Shown here piece after piece: positions 53,693-64,000 of a stretch of DNA of 64,000 nt. The stretch lies in the NCBI RefSeq assembly GCF_001307295.1, contig NZ_CP012700.1, positions 3,041,001 through 3,105,000 of the forward strand. Reading direction: 5' to 3'. The stretch's first letter is position 1. Each line of letters starts with the position of its first letter. This DNA comes from Sphingopyxis macrogoltabida (GTDB lineage: Bacteria; Pseudomonadota; Alphaproteobacteria; Sphingomonadales; Sphingomonadaceae). A program made the translations under genes and the position numbers. Below the pieces are notes generated by a model. The model did not search any database, was not told the DNA's origin, and saw only the letters and a list, made by a program, of their open reading frames with translations.

Positions 53693-54133
53693 GTGTCTGC
53701 AAAGCGGCCGAGCGAATGGCCGGTCCTTTTCAATCTCGCCGTAGATATTCTTGACCATTTCAGGAAGGCGAACGGCTTCGCGCCTCAGTGGAGCTTCGGC
53801 GGCGGAACCGCACTGATGCTGCAGATCGATCATCGTGAAAGTCACGACATCGACCTGTTTCTGGACGATCCACAAATCCTCCCATTTCTCAATCCGGAAA
53901 CGCAAGGCATCAAACTCGATCACGCTCCTGACAGCTATCAGGCAGGCACCGATATGCTGAAGCTTGCTTATCACGATCTGGGCGAAATTGATTTCATCTG
54001 CTGCGACAGCATCATTCCAGATCCAACACGAGCGCACGACGTTCAAGGTCATGTCAAACGGCGTTCAAAAGGGACCCCCGATCGGCGTCGAAGAGGGACC
54101 CCCTTTTCGGATAATATGATGCTGGTTTGTTGA
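53693..54133 (+). pseudogene. AbiEii/AbiGii-type nucleotidyltransferase toxin, truncated by IS21
   Basis: From GTG 53693 the native part (to about 54051) gives WSFGGGTALMLQIDHRESHDIDLFLDD, the GG...D.DLF nucleotidyltransferase site of the AbiEii (DUF1814) family, and IDFICCDSI. After AHDVQG the frame runs into the IS21 end and stops at 54133. Typical members are about twice as long, and the missing part is not found on the other side of the IS21 element. Probably inactive. Confidence 0.85.
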
Positions 54134-54229: not shown

Positions 54230-54961
54230 TCAGCTGCGGTTTTTGAAGCGCCAGCTGTCGTTGCCCGTCTCGACGATATCGCAGTGGTGGGTGACGCGGT
54301 CGAGCAGCGCCGTGGTCATCTTGGGATCGCCGAACACGGTCGGCCATTCGCCGAAGGCGAGGTTCGTGGTGATGATGACGCTGGTCCGCTCATAAAGCTT
54401 GCTGATGAGGTGGAACAGCAACTGCCCTCCCGAGCGGGCGAACGGCAGATAACCGAGCTCGTCGAGCACGATCAGGTCGAGCCGCGACAGCTGCGCCGCC
54501 AGGGTCCCGCCTTTGCCGATCCGGGTCTCCTCTTCGAGGCGTGTCACCAGATCGACGGTGTTGAAGTAGCGGGCGCGAGCGCCCCTTCGCACGACATTGG
54601 CGGTGATCGCGATGGCGAGGTGGGTCTTGCCTGTCCCCGTGCCGCCGACCAGCACGATATTGCGGCGAGGCGGGAGGAAGGAGCCATCGTGAAGGGAGCG
54701 GATCATCTCCTCATTGATCGGTGTGCCCTCGAAGCTGAACCGCTCCAGGTCCTTCACCACGGGCAGCCTCGCAGCCGTCATCCGATAGCGGATGGAGGCT
54801 GCATCCCGGTGGGTCGCCTCAGCACGGAGCAGGTCGGTCAGTATCTCCATGGTGGTGCGCTTGCGCTGGAGGCCGGTGGTGACCGCCTCGTCGAACGCCG
54901 CCGCCATGCCCTTGAGTCCGAGGCCGCGCATCGTGTCGATCATATCATGCCGCTGCATCAT
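54230..54961 (-). CDS. istB: IS21 helper ATPase IstB
   Basis: 243 residues from ATG 54961, which overlaps the istA stop region. DnaA/DnaC-like AAA+ ATPase: Walker [13 protein letters not shown], Walker [13 protein letters not shown], sensor segment [18 protein letters not shown], and the arginine-rich end [17 protein letters not shown]. IstB loads on target DNA and activates the IstA transposase. Confidence 0.94.
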
Positions 54962-56459
54962 AGCCTCGCAGCAGATCATAGCGGGCACAGTCGGCGAGCG
55001 GAGGATGCTGCAGCATCCGGTCTTCCGAAGTGACGATGCTGTGGGGTGTCGCCGGCTCGCGGCGCCGGGAGAGGATGTTGAGGATCAGCTCGTCGCTGGC
55101 CGTTCCGTTCGCCAACGCTTCGCGCACGGCAGCCTCTACCGGCTCCAGGCCATCGGTGAGCACCGCCGAGAGGACCCGCACGAACCTGCGATCGGCCTCG
55201 TCCCCGGTGCCGAGCCTTCGCCGTAATCGGTGCAGGGCGGGCGGCAGATCCCAGTCCTGGAACGGTGCGCCGTTACGCAGCGCGCCGGGCTTGTGCGCGA
55301 GGACCGGCAGATAATGCCAGGGATCGTATATCGTGCGGTTCCGACCGAAGTGGCGCTCATGCTCCCCGACGATCGCATCGCCGCAGCGTATGACGATGCG
55401 ATCGGCATAGGAGCGCACCTGAACGGTCCGGCGTGCGGCCGTCGACATGACCGAGTAGCGGTTGCGATCGAAGCTGATGAGGCAGGTGCCGGTGACGGCA
55501 TGCTCGCTCTCATGGAAGCCGTCGAACGGTGCCAGGATCGGCTGCAGGGCCGGTCGCTCCATATCCAGCGCCTCGGCGACGGTAATATCCCCGCGTTCGG
55601 GATGGGCATGATGCTCGGCCCAGCGCCGGCACTCGGCCTCCAGCCACCCGTTGAGCTCGGCCAGGCTGGCGAACCGGAGTCGCGGCTGGAAGAAGCGGCC
55701 TCGGATCGTCTGGACCTGCTGCTCGACCTGGCCCTTCTCCCATCCCGCCGCCGGCGAGCAGGCGGTCGGCTCGACCATGTAATGATCGGTCATGATCAGG
55801 AAGCGGCGGTTGAACACACGCTCCTTGCCGGTGAACACGGCCGTCACCGCCGTCTTCATATTATCGTAGATACCGCGTCGCGGCACACCGCCGAAGAACG
55901 CGAACGCCCGGGCATGGGCATCGAACAGCATCTCCTGGCCCTCGCGCGGATAGGCCCGGACATAGGGTGCGCGCGAGTCGCAGAGACGCATATGCGCCAC
56001 CTTCACCCGCATCGGCTTGCCGGCGATCTCCACATCCTCGTGGCTCCAGTCGAACTGGTAGGCCTCACCCGGCTGGAAGGTCATCGGGATGAACGCCGGT
56101 GCGCCTTCGCCAGCATCCTTCCGCCGCGCAGCACGCCAGCGCGCCGCATAGCGGCGCACCGCATCATAGGATCCATCGAACCCCTCGCGCACCAGCAGGT
56201 CATGGATACGCGTCATCCGTAGCCGATCGCGGCGGCCGCGACCTTCGTTCTCCTCAAGCAGCGCATCGAGACGATCCTGATAAGGACCGATCCGCGGCAG
56301 CGGCTGGACTTTGCGCTGATAGTTGAACGCCGCCTCCGGCGACCGGATCGCTTTGCGGACGACCTTCCGCGACAAACGAAGGTCACGAGCGATCGCCTTG
56401 ATCGCCTTACCCGCTGCATGCTCACGCCGAATCCGAACCACTGTCTCCACGATCAACAT
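54945..56459 (-). CDS. istA: IS21 transposase IstA
   Basis: 504 residues. Helix-turn-helix ([27 protein letters not shown]), then the integrase core with [12 protein letters not shown] (first Asp), [12 protein letters not shown] (second Asp) and the Glu in [20 protein letters not shown]-terminal IstA domain follows. Complete. Confidence 0.94.
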
Positions 56460-56571
56460 CCCGTTCTCGCCAACTGATCAAAACCAGTCGGCCGACTAAA
56501 TCCCCGGGATGAAGGGGTCCTTTTTGCACGCCGATCACCCCACGAAGGGGGTGCCTATTGCACGCTGATCC

Positions 56572-57690
56572 TCAGTCAACCAGCCATTCGGGCCGGTGCT
56601 CCAATACCTGCACAGCAAAGTCGCTGGCCTCGACCTGCTCCTGCTCGCCCTCAATATACCGCAGGAACTGACGATATCCTTCCGGACGCACAGCGAAATC
56701 GTCGGGGAGTTCGATATGAACCGAGATGTGCTTCGCTCCGAACGGAATTCCGAACGTGGGCGCCTCGATCGTCCAATAACGACCCGACAGGACCCCGTAC
56801 ATCTCGCCGTGAAAGACAACCGCGCAGGTGCTGACATCGGAGGTGATCGAGCCGCTGACCGAGCGATTGTGCGAGGTGTCGTTGAACGGTTCGTCGTAGA
56901 TATAATGGATTTTGATGCCATTCGGCAGTTCGGCGGTCTCGTGGCGGGCGAAGGTGCCTTCTTCGCGCCGTTCGGAGATCGGCCGGAACCGCCGCGACCC
57001 AGTCTTGCGCGCATGTGTACCCTCCATGTGCCGAACTTCAACGTTGCCCGGCAACGTATAAAAGCGGTGATAAAGATAGTTCGCGAGCCAGAAGCGCTTC
57101 TGCAGTGGATCGCCGTCATAGGGATCCTCGACAGTGTTTTGCTCCATCCGGTTGCCAAGGAGCGTGACCTCGGTCCAGTCGGCATCGAGCGAGCGCTCGC
57201 CTTCACTGGCGATCAGCCCCGTCACCTCGACGACATCGCCGATGTCGTTTCCGTCGGTGTCGAAACGGCGTAGGCGACCGTAGACGCCTTCACGTTCGCA
57301 CAGGATGGTCTCGTGAACACGGCCGTCCTTGCAGGAGCGGTAGCGCAGGCCCCGCTTGTTGGACGGGAGCGACGCGACCTTGGCGCCCATTCCGAAATTC
57401 TTGTCGAGACCCTTTTCTTTGCGGATGGACGCCGCGAGATTGGTCATCCGTGCAAGCTCTTCCTCATCCATCCCAGGACCGTTGTTCCAGATCGTGAGCT
57501 TGGGGGTGCCTTGAACGTCGCTGACAAGGAATTCTACCTTTCCGTCCTCAGGCGCATCAGCGGCCGCTTCAAGAGCGTTTTTGAACAGCTCGCGGACCAT
57601 CATGACCTTGGGACAGCGTTCGATCGTGCTGGTGACCAGAAAGTCTTGGTCATCGACGCGAATGGCTGAAACCTGACTATCGGCGCTCAT
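56572..57690 (-). CDS. GHKL-type ATPase (MORC/Hsp90-like), possible defence protein
   Basis: 372 residues. The ATP site is in the N-terminal 110: N-box ELFKNALEAA (Glu34, Asn38), G1 box WNNGPGM where the usual Asp is Asn69, and G2 NFGMGAK (100-104). The rest has a transducer-like part (EVTLLGNRMEQNTVEDP, FWLANYLYHRFYTLPGNVEVR) without a recognised effector domain. GHKL ATPases of this kind occur in mobile elements and conflict systems. The stop codon TGA coincides with the outermost TGA of the IS21 end, so the C-terminus may be cut. It follows a small gene on the same strand by 9 bp. Confidence 0.78.
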   Translation of the reverse strand: MSADSQVSAIRVDDQDFLVTSTIERCPKVMMVRELFKNALEAAADAPEDGKVEFLVSDVQGTPKLTIWNNGPGMDEEELARMTNLAASIRKEKGLDKNFGMGAKVASLPSNKRGLRYRSCKDGRVHETILCEREGVYGRLRRFDTDGNDIGDVVEVTGLIASEGERSLDADWTEVTLLGNRMEQNTVEDPYDGDPLQKRFWLANYLYHRFYTLPGNVEVRHMEGTHARKTGSRRFRPISERREEGTFARHETAELPNGIKIHYIYDEPFNDTSHNRSVSGSITSDVSTCAVVFHGEMYGVLSGRYWTIEAPTFGIPFGAKHISVHIELPDDFAVRPEGYRQFLRYIEGEQEQVEASDFAVQVLEHRPEWLVD

Positions 57691-57699
57691 GCTCTCTCC

Positions 57700-57930
57700 T
57701 TAGAGTTTGAACCGGGCTCTCCGACGGGCATTCGGTCCTTGGAACCGCGCCTCGACCTTCCCGACCTCGTCCCGCAATGCCTTCAGGATCCTCTTCACCT
57801 CGGCTTCGTCCCAAGCGTAGAGCTGCGTATTCGAGAGATTGCCGATCCGCTCGATCGCTTCGAGAGCCTTGTCCGTGCGATTCTCTGCCAGCTCCCGAAA
57901 CTTGCCCCTCTTCTTGTCAGTATCCGCCAT
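57700..57930 (-). CDS. Small helical protein paired with the GHKL ATPase
   Basis: 76 residues from ATG 57930 (AAGG upstream). It reads KKRGKFRELAENRTDKALEA, RIGNLSNTQLYAWDEAEVKRI, then a basic end RRRARFKL. I have seen this FRELAENRT...IGNLSN type as a small gene near plasmid or island genes, but its function is unknown. It is 9 bp upstream of the ATPase and shares its promoter region (57931-58207), which also faces the next operon. Confidence 0.72.
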   Translation of the reverse strand: MADTDKKRGKFRELAENRTDKALEAIERIGNLSNTQLYAWDEAEVKRILKALRDEVGKVEARFQGPNARRRARFKL

Positions 57931-57979
57931 TTTTAACCTTCTGAAGCATGCATGATTCGCATTATGCCTACGCGAAAAT

Positions 57980-58012
57980 ATCATATTCGTCTAATACTGT
58001 GGAAAATATGAT
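57980..58012. promoter_or_regulatory. Inverted repeat ATCATATT-N17-AATATGAT in the divergent gap
   Basis: Perfect 8-bp arms in an AT-rich segment, 50-80 bp upstream of the small minus-strand gene and about 200 bp before the plus-strand operon. The 277-bp gap contains no gene. Operator role for a regulator not encoded nearby is a guess. Confidence 0.4.
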
Positions 58013-58207
58013 GCGCTGCCTTACATAATTTGCGGAAAAATTGGTGCAAATTTCCTCAATATGGATCGCAATCTTATGACACACTCCCCAATGGATGGCC
58101 CATAGAAAGGCACAAGGCGGAACGCTCCACAGCGGCAATGAGAGGATGACCCGAGCATTTTTAATAGTTATGGAAACGGTGCAGCGTCAGAACGGTGAGA
58201 TCAGCAA

Positions 58208-58936
58208 TTGCAGAACAGATATGTTGGCGACGCCGGCGACTATGTAAAGCTCGCCCTCCTTCGCGCGTTGTCGCCAGGCTTGAAGCTTGGCGTTGCTTGG
58301 TATTTGTACCCAGATGAGGGCCACAATGATGATGGGAAGCACATCGCGTATCTGAAAAACGCGTCACATTGGCGCCATCTCGACCCCACGCTGTTTGATC
58401 ATCTTGGCAGTATCGTGGAGTCGGGTCGAAATGTTGCGGCGATCGAGCGCAGGTGCGGATTGGAGGCCATGTATTCTAGCGAATTGCTAGATCACCAAAA
58501 GCTTCATTCTCGACTCCGGTCAGATGCACGCGCAGACTGGTTCGCCCGTGTGAACCAACAAATGCAGAACTGCGAGCTTGTCTTTGCCGATCCAGACAAT
58601 GGCCTAACCGACGACCAGCCAGCACGTCGTAGCAAGCCTCGCTTCGGGAAGAGCCTGCCTATCACAGAAGCGCTTACCCTCGCGGCAGGCCGATCCGCGC
58701 TGATCTACCATCATAATAGCCGGTTCAAGGGTGGCCATGATCTTGAAGTCGATCATTGGCTTGGCAAGCTCGGCGAGAACAGTCTCGCCATCCGTGCCAA
58801 CGCCTACAGCTGCCGAACGTTCTTTCTCGTCAATCCCACAAAGCTTTTGGTGGAACGGGCGCGCGCCTTCTGCGCGACCTGGCGCGATCACAAAGTTCGC
58901 CTGCACAAAAGAGCTGGCTCGTCCGCCTCGTCCTAA
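58208..58936 (+). CDS. Uncharacterised conserved protein, first gene of the 58-63 kb cluster
   Basis: 242 residues from TTG 58208 with GGTGAG upstream; the N-terminus MQNRYVGDAGDYVKLALLRAL is the conserved start of a widespread unnamed family, which supports the TTG. Later conserved-looking segments are CELVFADPDNGL and ALIYHHNSRFKGGHDLEVDHW. The FADPDNG strand-loop resembles the DPP-type site of Rossmann methyltransferases such as RlmJ, but I cannot show an S-adenosylmethionine site, so the function stays open. Next gene begins 126 bp downstream on the same strand, with lower GC than the transfer genes. Confidence 0.75.
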   Translation: MQNRYVGDAGDYVKLALLRALSPGLKLGVAWYLYPDEGHNDDGKHIAYLKNASHWRHLDPTLFDHLGSIVESGRNVAAIERRCGLEAMYSSELLDHQKLHSRLRSDARADWFARVNQQMQNCELVFADPDNGLTDDQPARRSKPRFGKSLPITEALTLAAGRSALIYHHNSRFKGGHDLEVDHWLGKLGENSLAIRANAYSCRTFFLVNPTKLLVERARAFCATWRDHKVRLHKRAGSSASS

Positions 58937-59062
58937 AATTGGCTCGGCGCCCTCCGATTTCCCATCTGTCCGATCGAGCCTAAGTGGCGTAACATAGTGG
59001 AGTCTCCCTCAACTTATGCAGCTCGGCCGAGCCGCGTCGGACAAATTTGAGTGAGATAGTTT

Positions 59063-60535
59063 TTGCCTTCCGTTGGAGCCAAGGGTTTTTGTCAGGATGA
59101 TCATCAAGCCATTCCTGACCTCAAAACTGATCTGGACGAGGGTAATCTGCTGATGCTGCTCGACCTTTTCTCTCCGACTGCGGAGAATAGCAGATTGGCC
59201 ATTACCGATCAGGAATCGAGGGTGGCTGCGAAACCTGCTCATCAACGGCCCAAATCTAGTGCCGATCTGACGCCGCTCTTCGTTCATCCTAACGAAGTGC
59301 TGTTTCTCGATATCGAAACTACTGGGCTGAGCCGCTATTATGACTATGTAACGCTCATCGGCTTCGCCATCGGCGGCAAATATGAGGTCGTTCTTGCGGG
59401 AGAGGATCCTCAGCCATTTCTTAATGCGCTCGCAAACGCTCACAGTTTGGTCACATTCAACGGCTCGGGATTCGACCTCGCATTTTTGGAAGATCTGATC
59501 GGAGAGATCCGGTGGCCCGCGCATCATGTCGATCTTCGATATAGTTGCCGGTCTATGGGGCTATCGGGAGGCCAGAAAGAGATAGAACGGATTCTGGGTA
59601 TCGATTGCCGCGCCGGTGTTGAGGACGTCGACGGGGCAGGCGCGGTTATTCTCTGGCACCGCTACATGCGCGGCGATCGGATCGCTTTGCGGCAACTTAT
59701 CGAATATAATCGTGCGGACATCCAAGCGATGCAGCTAATTCTCGATCACGTAGTTCGAGCGCGGACGACTAGCGACCTATTCTTACGGCCAGATCAGTTG
59801 CGAGGCTTATGCCTCGCGCGATTGAAACGATCAGGTTTCGCAAATGCCGATGCAGTCCTGCCCCCGCCTCCAACAGATCTTCGCAGCGTCGTTCACTTTA
59901 TGGACTTGTTCGGAGGCACGCCTGCTGAGACCGCAACCGTGGTCGGCCTCGATCTCACCGGGTCGGCAGAACGGCTTTCCGGCTTTTGCCGCATGCGCGG
60001 ATGCGAAGCCGAGACAACTACATTAGGCGACGACTCTGCGATTATCGATGCCGTCTTGGCGTCTGAACCGGATCTGGTTTCGATCGACTCACCGCTCTGC
60101 TTGCCGGTGGGCAGGACTAAGGTGACAGACGACGACCCCGCCCGAAATGAGGCTGGAATTTTGCGAGTCAGCGAGCGGATACTCAAACGGAGGGGCATCA
60201 ACGTCTATCCCTGCCTGTTGCCGAGTATGCAAAAGCTTACCGAGCGCGGAATCAGGCTGGCGGCCGCCCTGCGCAATCAGGGCTTGCAGGTGATCGAATG
60301 CTATCCTGGTGCTGCCCAAGATATCATGGGGATCCCACGCAAGGGTGCGGGTGAGGAATGGTTGAAGCTAGGACTGTCGGAATTTGGCGTCACCGGACGG
60401 TTCAAAAACGACAAGCTCACGCATGACGAACTTGATGCGATTACCTGTTCTCTTGTAGGGTTTTTCCATCTGGCTGGCCGCACCGAAGCGCTCGGCGGAG
60501 AAGGCGAAGAACCGATGCTAGTACCAAAGATATGA
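59063..60535 (+). CDS. DEDD exonuclease-like domain fused to DUF429 nuclease-like domain
   Basis: 490 residues from TTG 59063; ATG 59153 with GAGG upstream would remove 30 residues and is equally likely. Domain 1 (about 75-235) is a YprB-type RNase H-like fold with VLFLDIETTGL (Asp83, Glu85), VTFNGSGFDLAFLE (Asn133, Asp138) and EYNRADIQAM (Asp219). Domain 2 (about 290-475) is DUF429, also RNase H-like, with VVGLDLTG (Asp297), VSIDSPL (Asp342), VIECYPG (Glu412) and THDELDAI (Asp455/458). Both acidic sets look complete, so two nuclease sites in one chain. The kinase gene starts inside its stop (ATGA). Confidence 0.85.
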   Translation: MPSVGAKGFCQDDHQAIPDLKTDLDEGNLLMLLDLFSPTAENSRLAITDQESRVAAKPAHQRPKSSADLTPLFVHPNEVLFLDIETTGLSRYYDYVTLIGFAIGGKYEVVLAGEDPQPFLNALANAHSLVTFNGSGFDLAFLEDLIGEIRWPAHHVDLRYSCRSMGLSGGQKEIERILGIDCRAGVEDVDGAGAVILWHRYMRGDRIALRQLIEYNRADIQAMQLILDHVVRARTTSDLFLRPDQLRGLCLARLKRSGFANADAVLPPPPTDLRSVVHFMDLFGGTPAETATVVGLDLTGSAERLSGFCRMRGCEAETTTLGDDSAIIDAVLASEPDLVSIDSPLCLPVGRTKVTDDDPARNEAGILRVSERILKRRGINVYPCLLPSMQKLTERGIRLAAALRNQGLQVIECYPGAAQDIMGIPRKGAGEEWLKLGLSEFGVTGRFKNDKLTHDELDAITCSLVGFFHLAGRTEALGGEGEEPMLVPKI

Positions 60536-61065
60536 GCCAAGCCCGCGTGATCGTGATTAGCGGTGAAGTGGCCGCAGGGAAGACAACCGCGGCGAAATTG
60601 CTTCGCAGCCAAGGGTTCCAATATGCACGCATAAGTCAGGCAATTCGGACGCGCTGGGACGGCTCATTTGGGGAAAAGCCGCCCCGAAGCTGGTACCAAG
60701 ACATGGGGATGCAGCTGCATCGCGAAATCGGGCAGTGGGCGCTGTGCCAAGAGACCCTCGATCTCATACCCGACCCCTCGGTGGATTTCGTGATCGACGG
60801 CGCCCGATGGCATGAGGACATATCTTTTTTCAGGACGCAATTTGGATCGGATATGCTACATATCCACCTAGTCGCATCCGCCGACGTGCGCAAAATGCGC
60901 TTCGACGCGCGCGAAAAGGATGTCTCTTTCGAAGAGGCTGATGCAGACGAGGTCGAGCTTGAGGTCAAAGAGCTGAACCTGAATGCCGACATGGTCTTCG
61001 ATAATAGTACGAACGATCTCTCCAAGCTGGAAGAGTTTATCAATTTCGTCATGAAAAAGGTTTGA
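60532..61065 (+). CDS. P-loop nucleotide kinase, deoxynucleotide-monophosphate-kinase-like
   Basis: 177 residues. P-loop VISGEVAAGKTTAAKLL (10-18), then ARISQAIRTRW, a middle DFVIDGARWHEDISFFRTQFG with the substrate/Walker-B-like Asp, an Arg-rich lid (RKMRFDAREKD) and VFDNSTNDLSKLEEFI. The layout is that of dephospho-CoA kinase / phage deoxynucleotide kinase relatives. It should phosphorylate a (deoxy)nucleoside monophosphate, perhaps the product of the next gene, 3 bp downstream. Exact substrate unknown. Confidence 0.82.
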   Translation: MSQARVIVISGEVAAGKTTAAKLLRSQGFQYARISQAIRTRWDGSFGEKPPRSWYQDMGMQLHREIGQWALCQETLDLIPDPSVDFVIDGARWHEDISFFRTQFGSDMLHIHLVASADVRKMRFDAREKDVSFEEADADEVELEVKELNLNADMVFDNSTNDLSKLEEFINFVMKKV

Positions 61066-61068
61066 ATC

Positions 61069-62121
61069 ATGCCCGTTAGCATCGTCGTCGGTGGCCAATA
61101 TGGATCCGAAGGCAAAGGCAAGGTAGCGCTAGCGCTAGCGCGGCAGGAACGCGGCGAAGCTGTGGTGGTGAGGGTCGGCGGCCCCAATTCCGGTCATACC
61201 GGTTATGACCGAAGCGGGCGGCGCTGGGTATTGCGACAGCTCCCCGTTGCAGCGGTCGACGGAGTTCGCCTGATCGTGCTCCCCGCGGGATCTTATCTTG
61301 ATCCCGACCTGCTACTTGAAGAAATCGCATCGCTGGGCCTTGCCCCGGAGGATGTTGCCATTAGTCCGCAAGCGCGCGTCATTACATCTGGACATATCGA
61401 CCATGAGGTGAACTCCAAAATCAACCAGTCCATCGGCTCAACCGCGACTGGTACCGGTGCTGCGGTCGTCGCGGCCATTCAGCGGGGCGCGCCAGATGCG
61501 GGCCCGGCCGCTGCCTTCGCTAAGAATGACGATCGACTTAAACCCTATGTCAAATCCACGATTGACCTCTTGCGCCAAGCTCTGGACGAAGGTCGCCGGG
61601 TCATCATCGAAGGAACGCAGGGCTTTGGGCTCTCTCCGCTCCATTCCCCGCATTGGCCCAATGTGACGAGCCGCGACACCAGTGCAGCGGGCTTCCTATC
61701 GGAAGCCGGCCTGGCGCCCACTGATGTCGACGATGTAACACTTGTGCTGCGATGCTGGCCCATTCGGGTATCGGGAAACTCGGGGCCGTTGGAAACCGAG
61801 ACCGATTGGGAGACGGTAACGCGTGAAAGCGGAGCGCACATCGATCTCAGCGAATTTACGAGTGTTACCAAGAAATTACGAAGAGTCGGCCGCTTTGAAT
61901 TCGATATCGCGAAGCAAGCGATCGCGGTGAACATGCCGACGAGGATCGTCCTCAATCACCTCGATCATGTCGATTGGCGCTGCCACGACGGCGCGCTTAC
62001 AGGTGCAGCGCAGGAATTCATTCACTTTGTCGAGCGGGGGCTGAACCGACATGTCGATTGGGTTGGCACGGGTGTGGACAGCTTTGTCAAGCTGGGCCTG
62101 CTATCTGCTCTTCGGGCCTAA
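61069..62121 (+). CDS. Short adenylosuccinate-synthetase homologue, PurZ-like
   Basis: 350 residues, close to phage PurZ and archaeal short PurA, against about 430 for bacterial PurA. The GTP/IMP loop reads GGQYGSEGKGK (8-18): Ser13 replaces the catalytic Asp13 of PurA, a change I recall for PurZ enzymes that make 2-amino-adenylosuccinate from dGMP. His43 (NSGHT) is kept, as are EGTQGFGLS, RVSGNSGP and the C-terminal LRRVGRFEFD. It should join aspartate to a purine nucleotide. A housekeeping copy is unlikely given size, residue change and island context. The downstream gene overlaps it by 71 bases. Confidence 0.88.
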   Translation: MPVSIVVGGQYGSEGKGKVALALARQERGEAVVVRVGGPNSGHTGYDRSGRRWVLRQLPVAAVDGVRLIVLPAGSYLDPDLLLEEIASLGLAPEDVAISPQARVITSGHIDHEVNSKINQSIGSTATGTGAAVVAAIQRGAPDAGPAAAFAKNDDRLKPYVKSTIDLLRQALDEGRRVIIEGTQGFGLSPLHSPHWPNVTSRDTSAAGFLSEAGLAPTDVDDVTLVLRCWPIRVSGNSGPLETETDWETVTRESGAHIDLSEFTSVTKKLRRVGRFEFDIAKQAIAVNMPTRIVLNHLDHVDWRCHDGALTGAAQEFIHFVERGLNRHVDWVGTGVDSFVKLGLLSALRA

Positions 62122-63079
62122 GCCTGTTCCCGCCGTGCCGAAAGCCCAGCCAGCCGATGCCCGCTCTTTGGACCCGGCAACGACGAAGAAAGACTTCGAT
62201 GATCGAGCGGATTGGTGGGAATTCACGGATCCTTTTGATGACTTGGACCCGGCGCTACTGACGGCAGAACAGATCAACAATTATGCGCGTGTTACCGGTC
62301 TTATTCGGCCTTTTGATGAGAAGCTGTTGAAGGGAGCCACCTACGAGATCGGCGTAGGGGGCAATGTATATTCTTGGGATGACAAGAAAAAGAAGAAGGT
62401 CTTACCGGTGGCAAATGTCGGCGAGAGCGGAATCGTTCTCGAGGCGAACTCGATCACGTTTGTCGAGACCGACGTGGAGTTTCGCCTACCGCAATATATC
62501 GCGATGCGCTTTAACCTTCATATCAAGCTGGTTCATCGCGGTCTCCTGCTCGGCACAGGCCCGATCGTCGACCCGGGTTTTCGGGGACGCCTGCTTATCC
62601 CCCTGCACAATCTGACGAGTCAGCCGCTTACCATCAAACAGGGCGAGAAAATCGTCTGGATTGAATTCACCAAAACCTCGTTTGGCCAGTCATCGGATCG
62701 CGAGGGCTATCGCAAAGAGCTCCCGAACTTCAAAGTCTTTCCGAAGAACAAAAGATGGATCGAGGCGGAGGCCTACCTACAAAAAGCCAACTCGGGCAAT
62801 CCTATCATGAGCTCGATTTCTGGATTTATTTCCAAAACTAACAAACAATTAAAGAGAAACACCAGATGGGTGAATACGCTCGGAATTACGGGCTTCATAA
62901 GCATTGCGCTGACCGTGTTTGGCGGTCTCTACGCAAGCTTGACCGTCCTCAACAATGCATGGACCGCTGTGAACACAGACGTTGCTCAGCGCAAGGAGCT
63001 AGAGGCCCGGCTACAACGTCTTGAACGATGCTTAAAGACCGCGAAGGTTACGAACAAACCGCCCACACCCGACTGCTGA
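62051..63079 (+). CDS. dCTP-deaminase/dUTPase-fold protein with C-terminal membrane helix
   Basis: 342 residues from ATG 62051, deep inside the preceding gene; a GTG at 62132 without a ribosome site is the alternative. The trimeric deaminase fold runs from IRPFDEKLLKGATYEIGVGG (85-104) to IVDPGFRGRLLIPLHNLTS and KQGEKIVWIEF (about 206). The catalytic Glu of E. coli Dcd (in VLEFYN) is Pro184 here, and the RSS...R motif reads FNLHIKLVHR, so deamination is unlikely. A membrane helix (about 274-300) and a coiled tail (about 312-330) follow. It could sense a nucleotide at the membrane. Confidence 0.83.
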   Translation: MSIGLARVWTALSSWACYLLFGPKPVPAVPKAQPADARSLDPATTKKDFDDRADWWEFTDPFDDLDPALLTAEQINNYARVTGLIRPFDEKLLKGATYEIGVGGNVYSWDDKKKKKVLPVANVGESGIVLEANSITFVETDVEFRLPQYIAMRFNLHIKLVHRGLLLGTGPIVDPGFRGRLLIPLHNLTSQPLTIKQGEKIVWIEFTKTSFGQSSDREGYRKELPNFKVFPKNKRWIEAEAYLQKANSGNPIMSSISGFISKTNKQLKRNTRWVNTLGITGFISIALTVFGGLYASLTVLNNAWTAVNTDVAQRKELEARLQRLERCLKTAKVTNKPPTPDC

Positions 63080-63165
63080 TCGCTGAGTTCTAGCGGGCGT
63101 CGATTGAATTGATGTTCGGAGTTTGCGCTTGGCGCCCATTGGCGCGGCGAGCAAACGCCGATCGT

Positions 63166-63867
63166 CTATAGCCAGAGATGAAACAGACTTATCGGCCCTG
63201 GCTCGCAGCTATAACTATCCCCCACATATCTGAAATCCCGTCGATGCGACGACTGCTGGGCAGTCGGGTGGAGATCGGGCCTTGCTACGGGGTGGGAAAG
63301 CGTCTGCATTGTGTCTGAACGCGCGCGCGCGCATTTGATGAGATGGGGTGCGAGCCTACTCGTCACGCTCGAGCCATCGCGGACATAGGCTAGCATGATC
63401 GCCGATCGGTGCGCCCAAGCATATTCCCCGGCAACAAAGCGCGCGATGCCCTCTTTGCAGTATAGGCTAACACGCTTTGCGTTCGGATGGTCGATGATCT
63501 TGCACTCGACTAAGAATGGGAAATTGCGGTTGCCGACGGTGAATACGAGCGACAGATCGGGTCGCCCTTCGATTTTGGCGCCGTTATAGCTCATCGACTC
63601 CCGGCCCCGGTGCACTGAGTGGACCAGATCCTTCCAAAGCTTCTGTGTTTGGCAGAAATGATTGAGTCGTGGCTCGAGGAGGGCGTTGACCTCAGCCTCG
63701 TCTCCGCTAAGCAAAGCCGGAGCTCCATTGGCGAGAAGCTCATGCCATGCCAGCGAGATCGTCTCGAGGATGATCTTCAAATGACGATCGTCGATCTGAA
63801 CCAGAGGCAAACGCACACCGCTGGTTAGCTCCGCTATATGGTTGGGGCGCGCCTGCTTGACCGCCAT
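63166..63867 (-). CDS. PD-(D/E)XK nuclease-like protein
   Basis: 233 residues from ATG 63867 (an upstream start at 63927 is possible). The nuclease core reads KIEGRPDLSLVF (Asp104), then FPFLVECKIID (Glu121, Lys123), a standard D...ExK site; Glu64 (LLEPRLNHF) may be the first acidic residue. N-terminal helices (LKIILETISLAWHELLANG) precede it. It is convergent to the nucleotide-metabolism genes, 86 bp from the deaminase-fold gene. Restriction-like or defence role is likely; the last 130 bp of the window after it hold no gene that I can support. Confidence 0.8.
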   Translation of the reverse strand: MAVKQARPNHIAELTSGVRLPLVQIDDRHLKIILETISLAWHELLANGAPALLSGDEAEVNALLEPRLNHFCQTQKLWKDLVHSVHRGRESMSYNGAKIEGRPDLSLVFTVGNRNFPFLVECKIIDHPNAKRVSLYCKEGIARFVAGEYAWAHRSAIMLAYVRDGSSVTSRLAPHLIKCARARSDTMQTLSHPVARPDLHPTAQQSSHRRDFRYVGDSYSCEPGPISLFHLWL

Positions 63868-64000
63868 ATTATGTAGTGCGCCTGCCCGACAGAAAATCGA
63901 CATTATCCCAAATAATGCGCCGCGCAACGAGACGCGCTTGGCTAACCGACCAATAGCGCGCCTGATTAAGCCGGCCTACGAAGAGGCAATCCAATTGCTC

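Follow-up and report, generated by a model that had tools for sequence, protein, structure and literature searches.

Those cyclic oligonucleotide-based antiphage signaling systems (CBASS) and other nucleotide second-messenger systems that have membrane effectors combine a signal maker with a membrane-anchored receptor. To our knowledge, Kongming is the one known precedent for a modified deoxynucleotide as an immune signal, and its components are a KomA-type deaminase, a HAM1-type KomB and a SIR2-type KomC. According to a review, dITP is the immune signal of KomA, KomB and KomC (PMC12948488). Among phages, a study of PurZ0 genomes places dutZ in all 98 of them, with two tested enzymes hydrolyzing dATP, dGTP and dUTP (PMC12884076), which gives the pairing of PurZ with a Dut-fold protein a precedent. 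Here we describe a five-gene stretch (genes 1-5) of Sphingopyxis macrogoltabida, located in a window of 64,000 nucleotides (the whole stretch of DNA analyzed), which encodes a PurZ-like synthetase next to a nuclease-kinase and a membrane protein of the dCTP deaminase (DCD) fold. We propose that it is a mobile, defense-type nucleotide-signaling system, in which the PurZ-like enzyme and the kinase would make a 2-aminopurine deoxynucleotide that gene 5 would sense; we put the probability of this reading at roughly 0.4.

The operon resembles phage PurZ/PurZ0 and DutZ in having a synthetase of the same clan with Ser13, a partner of the dUTPase/DCD fold and a nucleotide-pool context. It differs from them in that its synthetase gene (gene 4) is bacterial, lies on a mobile island, forms a clade of its own and falls below the NCBIfam PurZ cut-off, and in that the operon has a fused nuclease-kinase and a Dut-fold partner with Pro in place of the deaminase Glu and with a membrane helix. 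The concept of a non-canonical deoxynucleotide signal made with a deoxynucleoside monophosphate kinase is shared with Kongming; however, the operon has its own kinase gene and a synthetase of different chemistry, its likely effector is a membrane protein, and genes 1-5 have no Pfam match to the deaminase, HAM1 or SIR2 families. Its layout, a signal maker with a membrane-anchored receptor, is like that of CBASS-type systems, whereas the predicted signal would be a mononucleotide made from dGMP; no CD-NTase match was found in genes 1-5 with Pfam or PADLOC. Gene 5 has the fold of housekeeping dCTP deaminases and dCTP deaminase-dUTPases, and is unlike the housekeeping dCTP deaminase in its Pro at the position of the catalytic Glu and its added membrane and coiled helix. 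A description of the operon was not found in the literature searched, a scope outside of which lie most subscription journals and most preprints.

Organization and conservation of the operon

The first-pass annotation, made from the sequence alone, had listed five plus-strand open reading frames (ORFs) at 58208-63079, and all five were found there.

Gene 1: 58208..58936, plus strand, 242 aa; accessory gene; methyltransferase fold predicted to be of the RlmJ type, motifs altered
Gene 2: 59063..60535, plus strand, up to 490 aa; exonuclease and DUF429-like domains
Gene 2, DEDDy-type exonuclease domain of RNase H fold: about 59300-59752, plus strand; PF13482, 103 bits
Gene 2, DUF429-like domain: about 59936-60472, plus strand; Pfam-level signal from relatives
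Gene 3: 60532..61065, plus strand, 177 aa; P-loop protein like deoxynucleoside monophosphate kinases; phrog_139, 5.8e-7
Gene 4: 61069..62121, plus strand, 350 aa; PurZ-clan succino-nucleotide synthetase; Ser13 codon at 61105-61107
Gene 5: 62051..63079, plus strand, 342 aa; dCTP-deaminase/dUTPase fold and C-terminal membrane helix
Gene 5, DCD domain: about 62258-62674, plus strand; PF22769; Pro184 codon at 62600-62602
Gene 5, membrane stretch: about 62894-62950, plus strand; inside an 80-residue helix

A scan with a gene 5 profile and two short peptide patterns, covering one genome per species in 84,980 species, yielded 57 loci, which are a sample since the scan relied on two short patterns. 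Together with L006, a locus from a further genome in the genus of the window, they make up the set of 58 loci analyzed below (type A). Genes 2/3, 4 and 5 follow this order on the same strand, with genes 4 and 5 no more than 1 kb apart, in 50 of the 58 loci, and gene 1 sits between genes 4 and 5 in six of these 50. The clustering of the genes is far beyond chance, and the earlier idea of one conserved system held when gene order was compared across genomes. That idea had included all five genes; the conserved core consists of three proteins (nuclease-kinase, synthetase and membrane DCD protein), and gene 1, found in 22 of 58 loci, is an optional neighbor. Genes 2 and 3 are a single open frame in 52 loci. 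Three loci have them apart: L007 (the copy in Sphingopyxis sp. H115), L012 and the fragmented L051. Of the remaining three, L026 lacks gene 3, and neither gene was seen in L018 or in L013, a 3.5-kb contig. Thus, of the tight coupling read earlier from the window, the gene order stands, while the ATGA split of genes 2 and 3 is the exception because most loci have one fused frame. The 71-base overlap of genes 4 and 5 depends on the first ATG of gene 5, whose residues 1-60 are poorly conserved.

By record title, the loci come from Alpha-, Beta- and Zetaproteobacteria and, mostly as metagenome-assembled genomes, from Gammaproteobacteria, Nitrospirae, Geobacter, Syntrophobacteraceae, Verrucomicrobia, Bacteroidetes, and Dehalococcoidia or Binatia. 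Two loci (L019 and L020) have identical gene 4 sequences under different phylum labels, so one of the two metagenome labels is probably wrong. The distribution was also examined independently of gene 5 seeding, by a PurZ-model search of 299 genomes from the phylum. In these genomes the scores of housekeeping PurA did not exceed 139.8 bits, and five genomes carried a PurZ-type gene of at least 172 bits. In the same 299 genomes, a search with gene 2 alone (E <= 1e-40) and one with the gene 5 profile (E <= 1e-20) each hit two, G000 and G069, which are the two with a type A gene 4. A search of 385 genomes from the class with the PurZ model (E <= 1e-44) gave matches in seven, of which the window's own was the sole type A and one (G585) was placed among PurA. 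In the 22 locus-bearing genomes submitted (22 of the 57 loci), the gene 5 family is confined to the locus or, in four genomes, to an adjacent second copy. Within the genus, 3 of 80 genomes carry the operon.

Gene 4 groups with PurZ rather than PurA

Gene 4 matches Adenylsucc_synt of Pfam (153.9 bits) and phrog_1211 (1.9e-75). Its score with the NCBIfam PurZ model NF038379 is 238.9 bits, equal to that with the archaeal-type PurA model (238.3 bits) and below the PurZ cut-off of 300, and we therefore call it PurZ-like, not PurZ. The Ser13 noted earlier in the window protein is general among its relatives. In an alignment from which gene 4 rows of at most 300 aa were dropped (L051), position 13 is occupied by Ser in 55 of the 57 type A sequences and by Gly in two, compared with Asp in 27/27 PurA and Ser in 8/8 phage PurZ. 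Type A sequences also differ from PurA by F/Y11 for Trp, Ser124 for Thr and Ile232 for Thr (57/57 versus 27/27), and Asn40, His43, Arg233, Arg271 and Arg272 are invariant. Type A sequences have N296-H297-x-D299 where PurA has T-K-x-D, and, judged against PurA structures, Asp299 suggests GTP rather than ATP as the energy donor. The pocket of S-2L PurZ places Tyr-Gly-Ser beside the dGMP 2-amino group, according to its description (PMC8342488), and the equivalent residues in type A are F/Y-G-S, with the last position S or G.

A 49-row tree that included archaeal PurA separated type A, other bacterial PurZ-type sequences and phage PurZ from PurA with support of 100/99; this tree was built without 30 of the 57 type A rows, 19 of the 27 PurA rows and the two rows of the PurZ-Ham1 loci described below. 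Type A formed its own clade in this tree (99/97) and in a 99-row tree (98/90), the latter of which, lacking archaeal PurA, left type A unplaced between PurZ and PurA (54/7). Judged by residues and trees, gene 4 is a member of the PurZ clan and PurZ-like rather than PurA. Clustering with housekeeping PurA had been named earlier as a point on which the proposal could fail, and it did not fail there. The reading of gene 4 as a housekeeping PurA was rejected on residue 13, the 100/99 split and a separate PurA (575.6 bits) elsewhere in the genome.

The nuclease-kinase encoded by genes 2 and 3

The exonuclease domain ascribed to gene 2 is borne out by a match to RNase_H_2 at 103 bits versus a cut-off of 22. 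In 52 of 58 loci, the fused protein has the order DEDDy exonuclease, DUF429, kinase. The alignment of this protein excluded rows of at most 590 aa (L026, L029, L034 and L051), and L013 and L018 have none; the exonuclease and DUF429 residues (D83 E85 D138 Y215 D219, D297 D342) and the P-loop residues G16, K17 and T18 of gene 3 are kept in 52/52 rows. The DUF429 half of the earlier assignment stands less firmly. The window protein shows a weak PDC-S44 match (E 1.6e-4, PADLOC) and none to DUF429 itself (PF04250, cut-off 23 bits), for which relatives score at or near the cut-off (23.3 bits in L012 and 20.5 bits in L024). Since most relatives are gapped at the first residues of gene 2, its TTG start is probably too early. 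Gene 3 had been described as deoxynucleotide-kinase-like, in agreement with its best PHROG match, the phage deoxynucleoside monophosphate kinase family phrog_139; its match to Pfam AAA_18 is below the cut-off.

Gene 5 is a DCD-fold protein with a membrane helix

Gene 5 matches the DCD family PF22769 with 42.9 bits versus a cut-off of 27, and scores 45 bits with the dCTP deaminase model TIGR02274, below its cut-off of 92.8. The position of the deaminase Glu, which is catalytic in dCTP deaminase, is occupied by Pro (Pro184 in the window) in 58/58 sequences, and a membrane helix, near residues 282-300 in the window, is present in 56/58. The first-pass reading of a deaminase fold lacking its catalytic Glu and carrying a membrane helix thus extends to the relatives. 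An AlphaFold model (pLDDT 88.9) has as its best Foldseek match the dCTP deaminase-dUTPase of M. tuberculosis (2.4e-11, TM 0.80 to target). Gene 5 has a conserved pocket motif, VHRGLLLGTGP..DPGF.G...P.HN, and the Asp of VDPGF is kept in 58/58. The stretch corresponding to RSS, which binds phosphate in dCTP deaminases, is altered.

A weak local match was noticed between gene 5 and the dUTPase of phage Glenn (31% over 71 aa). No match at E <= 1e-5 was found in 50,697 phage records, and none was confirmed among 42 pattern matches in IMG/VR. A phage origin of the operon was rejected, as neither collection gave gene 5.

Five loci carry a second gene-5-type (DCD) gene beside the operon (L010:9066-10256, L011:9192-10331, L014:4869-6335, L024:9147-10355 and L062:9180-10340), which may indicate a two-part receptor. 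Shorter DCD-fold proteins without the catalytic Glu are encoded on plasmids of Priestia (L065:8977-9765) and Rhizobium (L066:8995-9768), and both end, as judged by eye, in hydrophobic stretches. The former lies near a DUF4062 gene and the latter near a pair of AAA ATPase and UvrD helicase genes. These are perhaps another DCD-receptor system.

Kinase and synthetase in other bacterial loci

In other PurZ-type loci, a kinase related to gene 3 is fused to the N-terminus of PurZ.

L106:6991-10368, kinase-PurZ fusion locus
L107:7076-11427, kinase-PurZ fusion locus
L108:5136-9481, kinase-PurZ fusion locus
L116:5644-9275, kinase-PurZ fusion locus
L117:5006-9347, kinase-PurZ fusion locus

A DUF7002 gene adjoins the fusion in L107 (Pfam) and in L108, L116 and L117 (relatives of 42-57%). 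L107, L108 and L117 also have a YfbR-like HD gene and an uncharacterized 450-aa gene, and L106 has a second kinase before the fusion and a weakly peptidase-like protein after it. These arrangements indicate that kinase and PurZ belong together while the partner changes, as had been supposed for the window from gene order, and different partners are what would be expected if kinase and PurZ were a signal-making module and the partner an effector. On the conjugative plasmid pMl2 of Sinorhizobium medicae (L064:7181-11823), genes 4 and 5 occur with no gene 2/3 found, adjoining a YfbR-like HD gene (a 37% relative of that in the fusion loci) and a ThiF-like gene. A PF01712 deoxynucleoside kinase relative is present in 11 of the 58 type A loci.

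We further noticed an M78-Macro domain protein upstream of the fusion in L116. Two small genomes of the class carry a PurZ-type gene with Ser13 together with a Ham1-family gene (L114:6331-8675 and L115:6533-8920; a Pfam match in the former and a 50% relative in the latter). The pair lies after what we take to be a cytidylate-kinase-like gene and before a presumably rpsA-like gene. A DatZ relative was not found in these two genomes, which alone shows nothing.

Mobility and genomic context

A 10,571-bp block containing the operon is 100% identical between the window genome and Sphingopyxis sp. H115 (G739), and a single 7-kb backbone sample of the two species is 82% identical; it follows that the operon moved recently. 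The block includes an N6-methyltransferase gene (N6_Mtase, L007:9819-12863), which comes next after a 253-aa ORF downstream of the operon and lies beyond the window edge, and a MobA/MobL relaxase-helicase gene stands just past the block in H115. The GC content of the operon is 55.7%, versus 60.8% for the window.

Identical block, window part: 56575..64000; 100% identical in another Sphingopyxis species
GHKL ATPase: 56572..57690, minus strand; HATPase_c Pfam match; 3' end lost beside a transposase-like pair
94-aa protein adjoining the GHKL gene: 57700..57984, minus strand; relatives also close to gene 1 in L024 and L033
253-aa ORF downstream of the operon: 63166..63927, minus strand; earlier labeled PD-(D/E)XK; VRR_NUC E 0.23

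Type I restriction genes are found at 10 of the 58 loci versus none of 20 control stretches taken from the same contigs (P = 0.04, one-sided Fisher's exact test, which assumes independent loci although these are not independent). Matches to PADLOC models numbered 303 for the 126 nearest neighbors in 20 of the 57 loci versus 21 for 125 control genes, from which one 1956-aa ORF had been dropped; the higher count is swollen because restriction models are redundant. ORFs in the flanks were called by a codon-usage script, which can err. The mobile, defense-related surroundings seen earlier in the window are thereby supported, with reservations for single neighbors. The GHKL ATPase is present but truncated, with 372 aa in the window versus 607 aa in H115, and the two sequences diverge at 56575. 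For the ORF at 63166-63927, the nuclease label could not be confirmed; a 42% relative adjoins the system in L062.

Within 54230-57690 of the window, a transposase pair that we take to be istA/istB-like adjoins the truncated 3' end of the GHKL gene, and to the left of the pair lies an AbiEii-family fragment (53693-54133; 36.5 bits, residues 19-69 only). In gene 1, the motif DPDNG stands at the position where RlmJ sequences have DPPF, and the predicted structure is of the RlmJ type. As a sequence-level RlmJ, gene 1 was rejected, since a profile comparison gave 17% and the likeness is in fold only. The housekeeping gene rlmJ lies close to the operon in 12 of 58 loci (L011, L014, L016, L023, L024, L027, L032, L037, L045, L046, L047 and L054). 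The predicted fold of gene 1 and the nearby rlmJ may reflect an insertion site or a functional link.

Proposed function and alternative explanations

The comparisons show a conserved operon, membership of the synthetase in the PurZ clan, intact active-site residues in synthetase, kinase and exonuclease, a membrane DCD protein without the catalytic Glu, and recent transfer. From these features we infer the chemistry (substrate, product and ligand), the trigger, the oligomer, its action on the membrane and a benefit against phage, as follows. The trigger would be stress, most likely phage infection, during which dGMP would be freed from broken DNA by phage nucleases or by the exonuclease domain of gene 2. 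Gene 4 would join dGMP and aspartate to give 2-amino-N6-succino-deoxyadenylate (dSMP), which host PurB could convert to the 2-aminoadenine deoxynucleotide dZMP. The kinase, whether as gene 3 or as part of the fused protein, would phosphorylate the product towards a triphosphate foreign to healthy cells. Gene 5, a putative oligomer of the dCTP deaminase fold with its own pocket motif, would bind the triphosphate nucleotide and act on the membrane via its long C-terminal helix. In a more specific form, which we offer tentatively and consider doubtful, a 2-aminoadenine deoxynucleotide (dSMP, dZMP or dZTP) would be a bacterial immune second messenger, made by PurZ and kinase from the dGMP of DNA breakdown and received by the Glu-less membrane DCD protein, with the kinase-PurZ fusions feeding other effectors.

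Several observations weigh against the signaling proposal. Genes 4 and 5 are kept without a detectable gene 2/3 in L018 and on the plasmid of L064, and with gene 3 absent from L026, the nuclease-kinase is not strictly needed. The gene 5 frames of L013 and L025 stop before the membrane helix, near contig ends. Given the altered RSS stretch, the ligand of gene 5 may not be a deoxynucleoside triphosphate (dNTP), and gene 4 does not reach the NCBIfam PurZ threshold. The nearby rlmJ genes imply that not every site is a defense island, a small number of lineages accounts for the excess of restriction genes, whose significance is borderline, and control stretches match PADLOC models as well. Genes 4 and 5 themselves have no PADLOC match at E <= 1, and the support for gene 2 there is weak.

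The main rival is a module with no sensing step that supplies dZTP or depletes purine dNTPs. Gene 5 would then be an active, membrane-held DutZ-like diphosphatase that converts dGTP to dGMP and also removes dATP, gene 4 would make dSMP, gene 3 would lift dZMP, and phage would be harmed by Z in its DNA or by the loss of dATP and dGTP. Such a role is consistent with the dutZ carried by all phage PurZ0 genomes and the hydrolysis of dATP and dGTP by the tested enzymes (PMC12884076), with the invariant VDPGF Asp, and with the match of the gene 5 fold to bifunctional dCTP deaminase-dUTPases. It fits poorly with the Pro at the catalytic position in 58/58 and the altered RSS stretch; a conserved membrane helix would be odd for a pool enzyme, and no polymerase or DatZ-type gene was found among genes 1-5 with Pfam or PHROG. 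We consider this explanation unlikely. No other pair is as hard to separate as genes 4 and 5, which stay together in L018 and L064, where no gene 2/3 was detected; this, the DCD fold lacking Glu and carrying a membrane helix, and the mobile distribution would also suit toxin-antitoxin logic. Gene 5 would be a membrane toxin activated by an ordinary deoxynucleotide such as dGTP or dGMP, which the synthetase and kinase would keep low or whose binding they would block, until disturbance of the pools by phage released the toxin. A signal maker agrees better with the second gene-5 copies and with the varied partners seen beside PurZ-kinase fusions. We consider the toxin-antitoxin explanation improbable.

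A role in deoxypurine salvage or nucleotide house-cleaning, on islands and with no part in phage conflict, would account for the nucleotide-enzyme families of genes 3 and 4 and of the gene 5 fold, and for the deoxynucleoside kinase relative (11/58) and rlmJ (12/58) at some loci. We give it little weight, as salvage does not readily explain the patchy distribution (2/299 genomes of the phylum; 3/80 in the genus), the recent transfer together with a methyltransferase gene, the restriction genes as neighbors, or a membrane-anchored DCD protein without Glu. That gene 4 is a spare PurA and the rest coincidental could appeal to the Adenylsucc_synt match and the equal NCBIfam scores, but is largely contradicted and barely tenable, given the replacement of Asp13 in 57/57, the 100/99 split from bacterial and archaeal PurA, the genome's own PurA at 575.6 bits, and the gene order kept in 50 of 58 loci.

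Should the signaling proposal fail, the widespread clade of bacterial PurZ-like proteins and its fixed partners would still be new within the literature searched and could be assayed directly. A proven 2-aminoadenine signal would be close to a new kind of system. If the proposal is true, the 2-aminoadenine pathway, which has been studied as a phage device, would have a bacterial counterpart used in phage conflict, the dUTPase and dCTP deaminase folds would gain a role as nucleotide receptors, and dGMP arising from broken DNA would become testable as a simple immune trigger.

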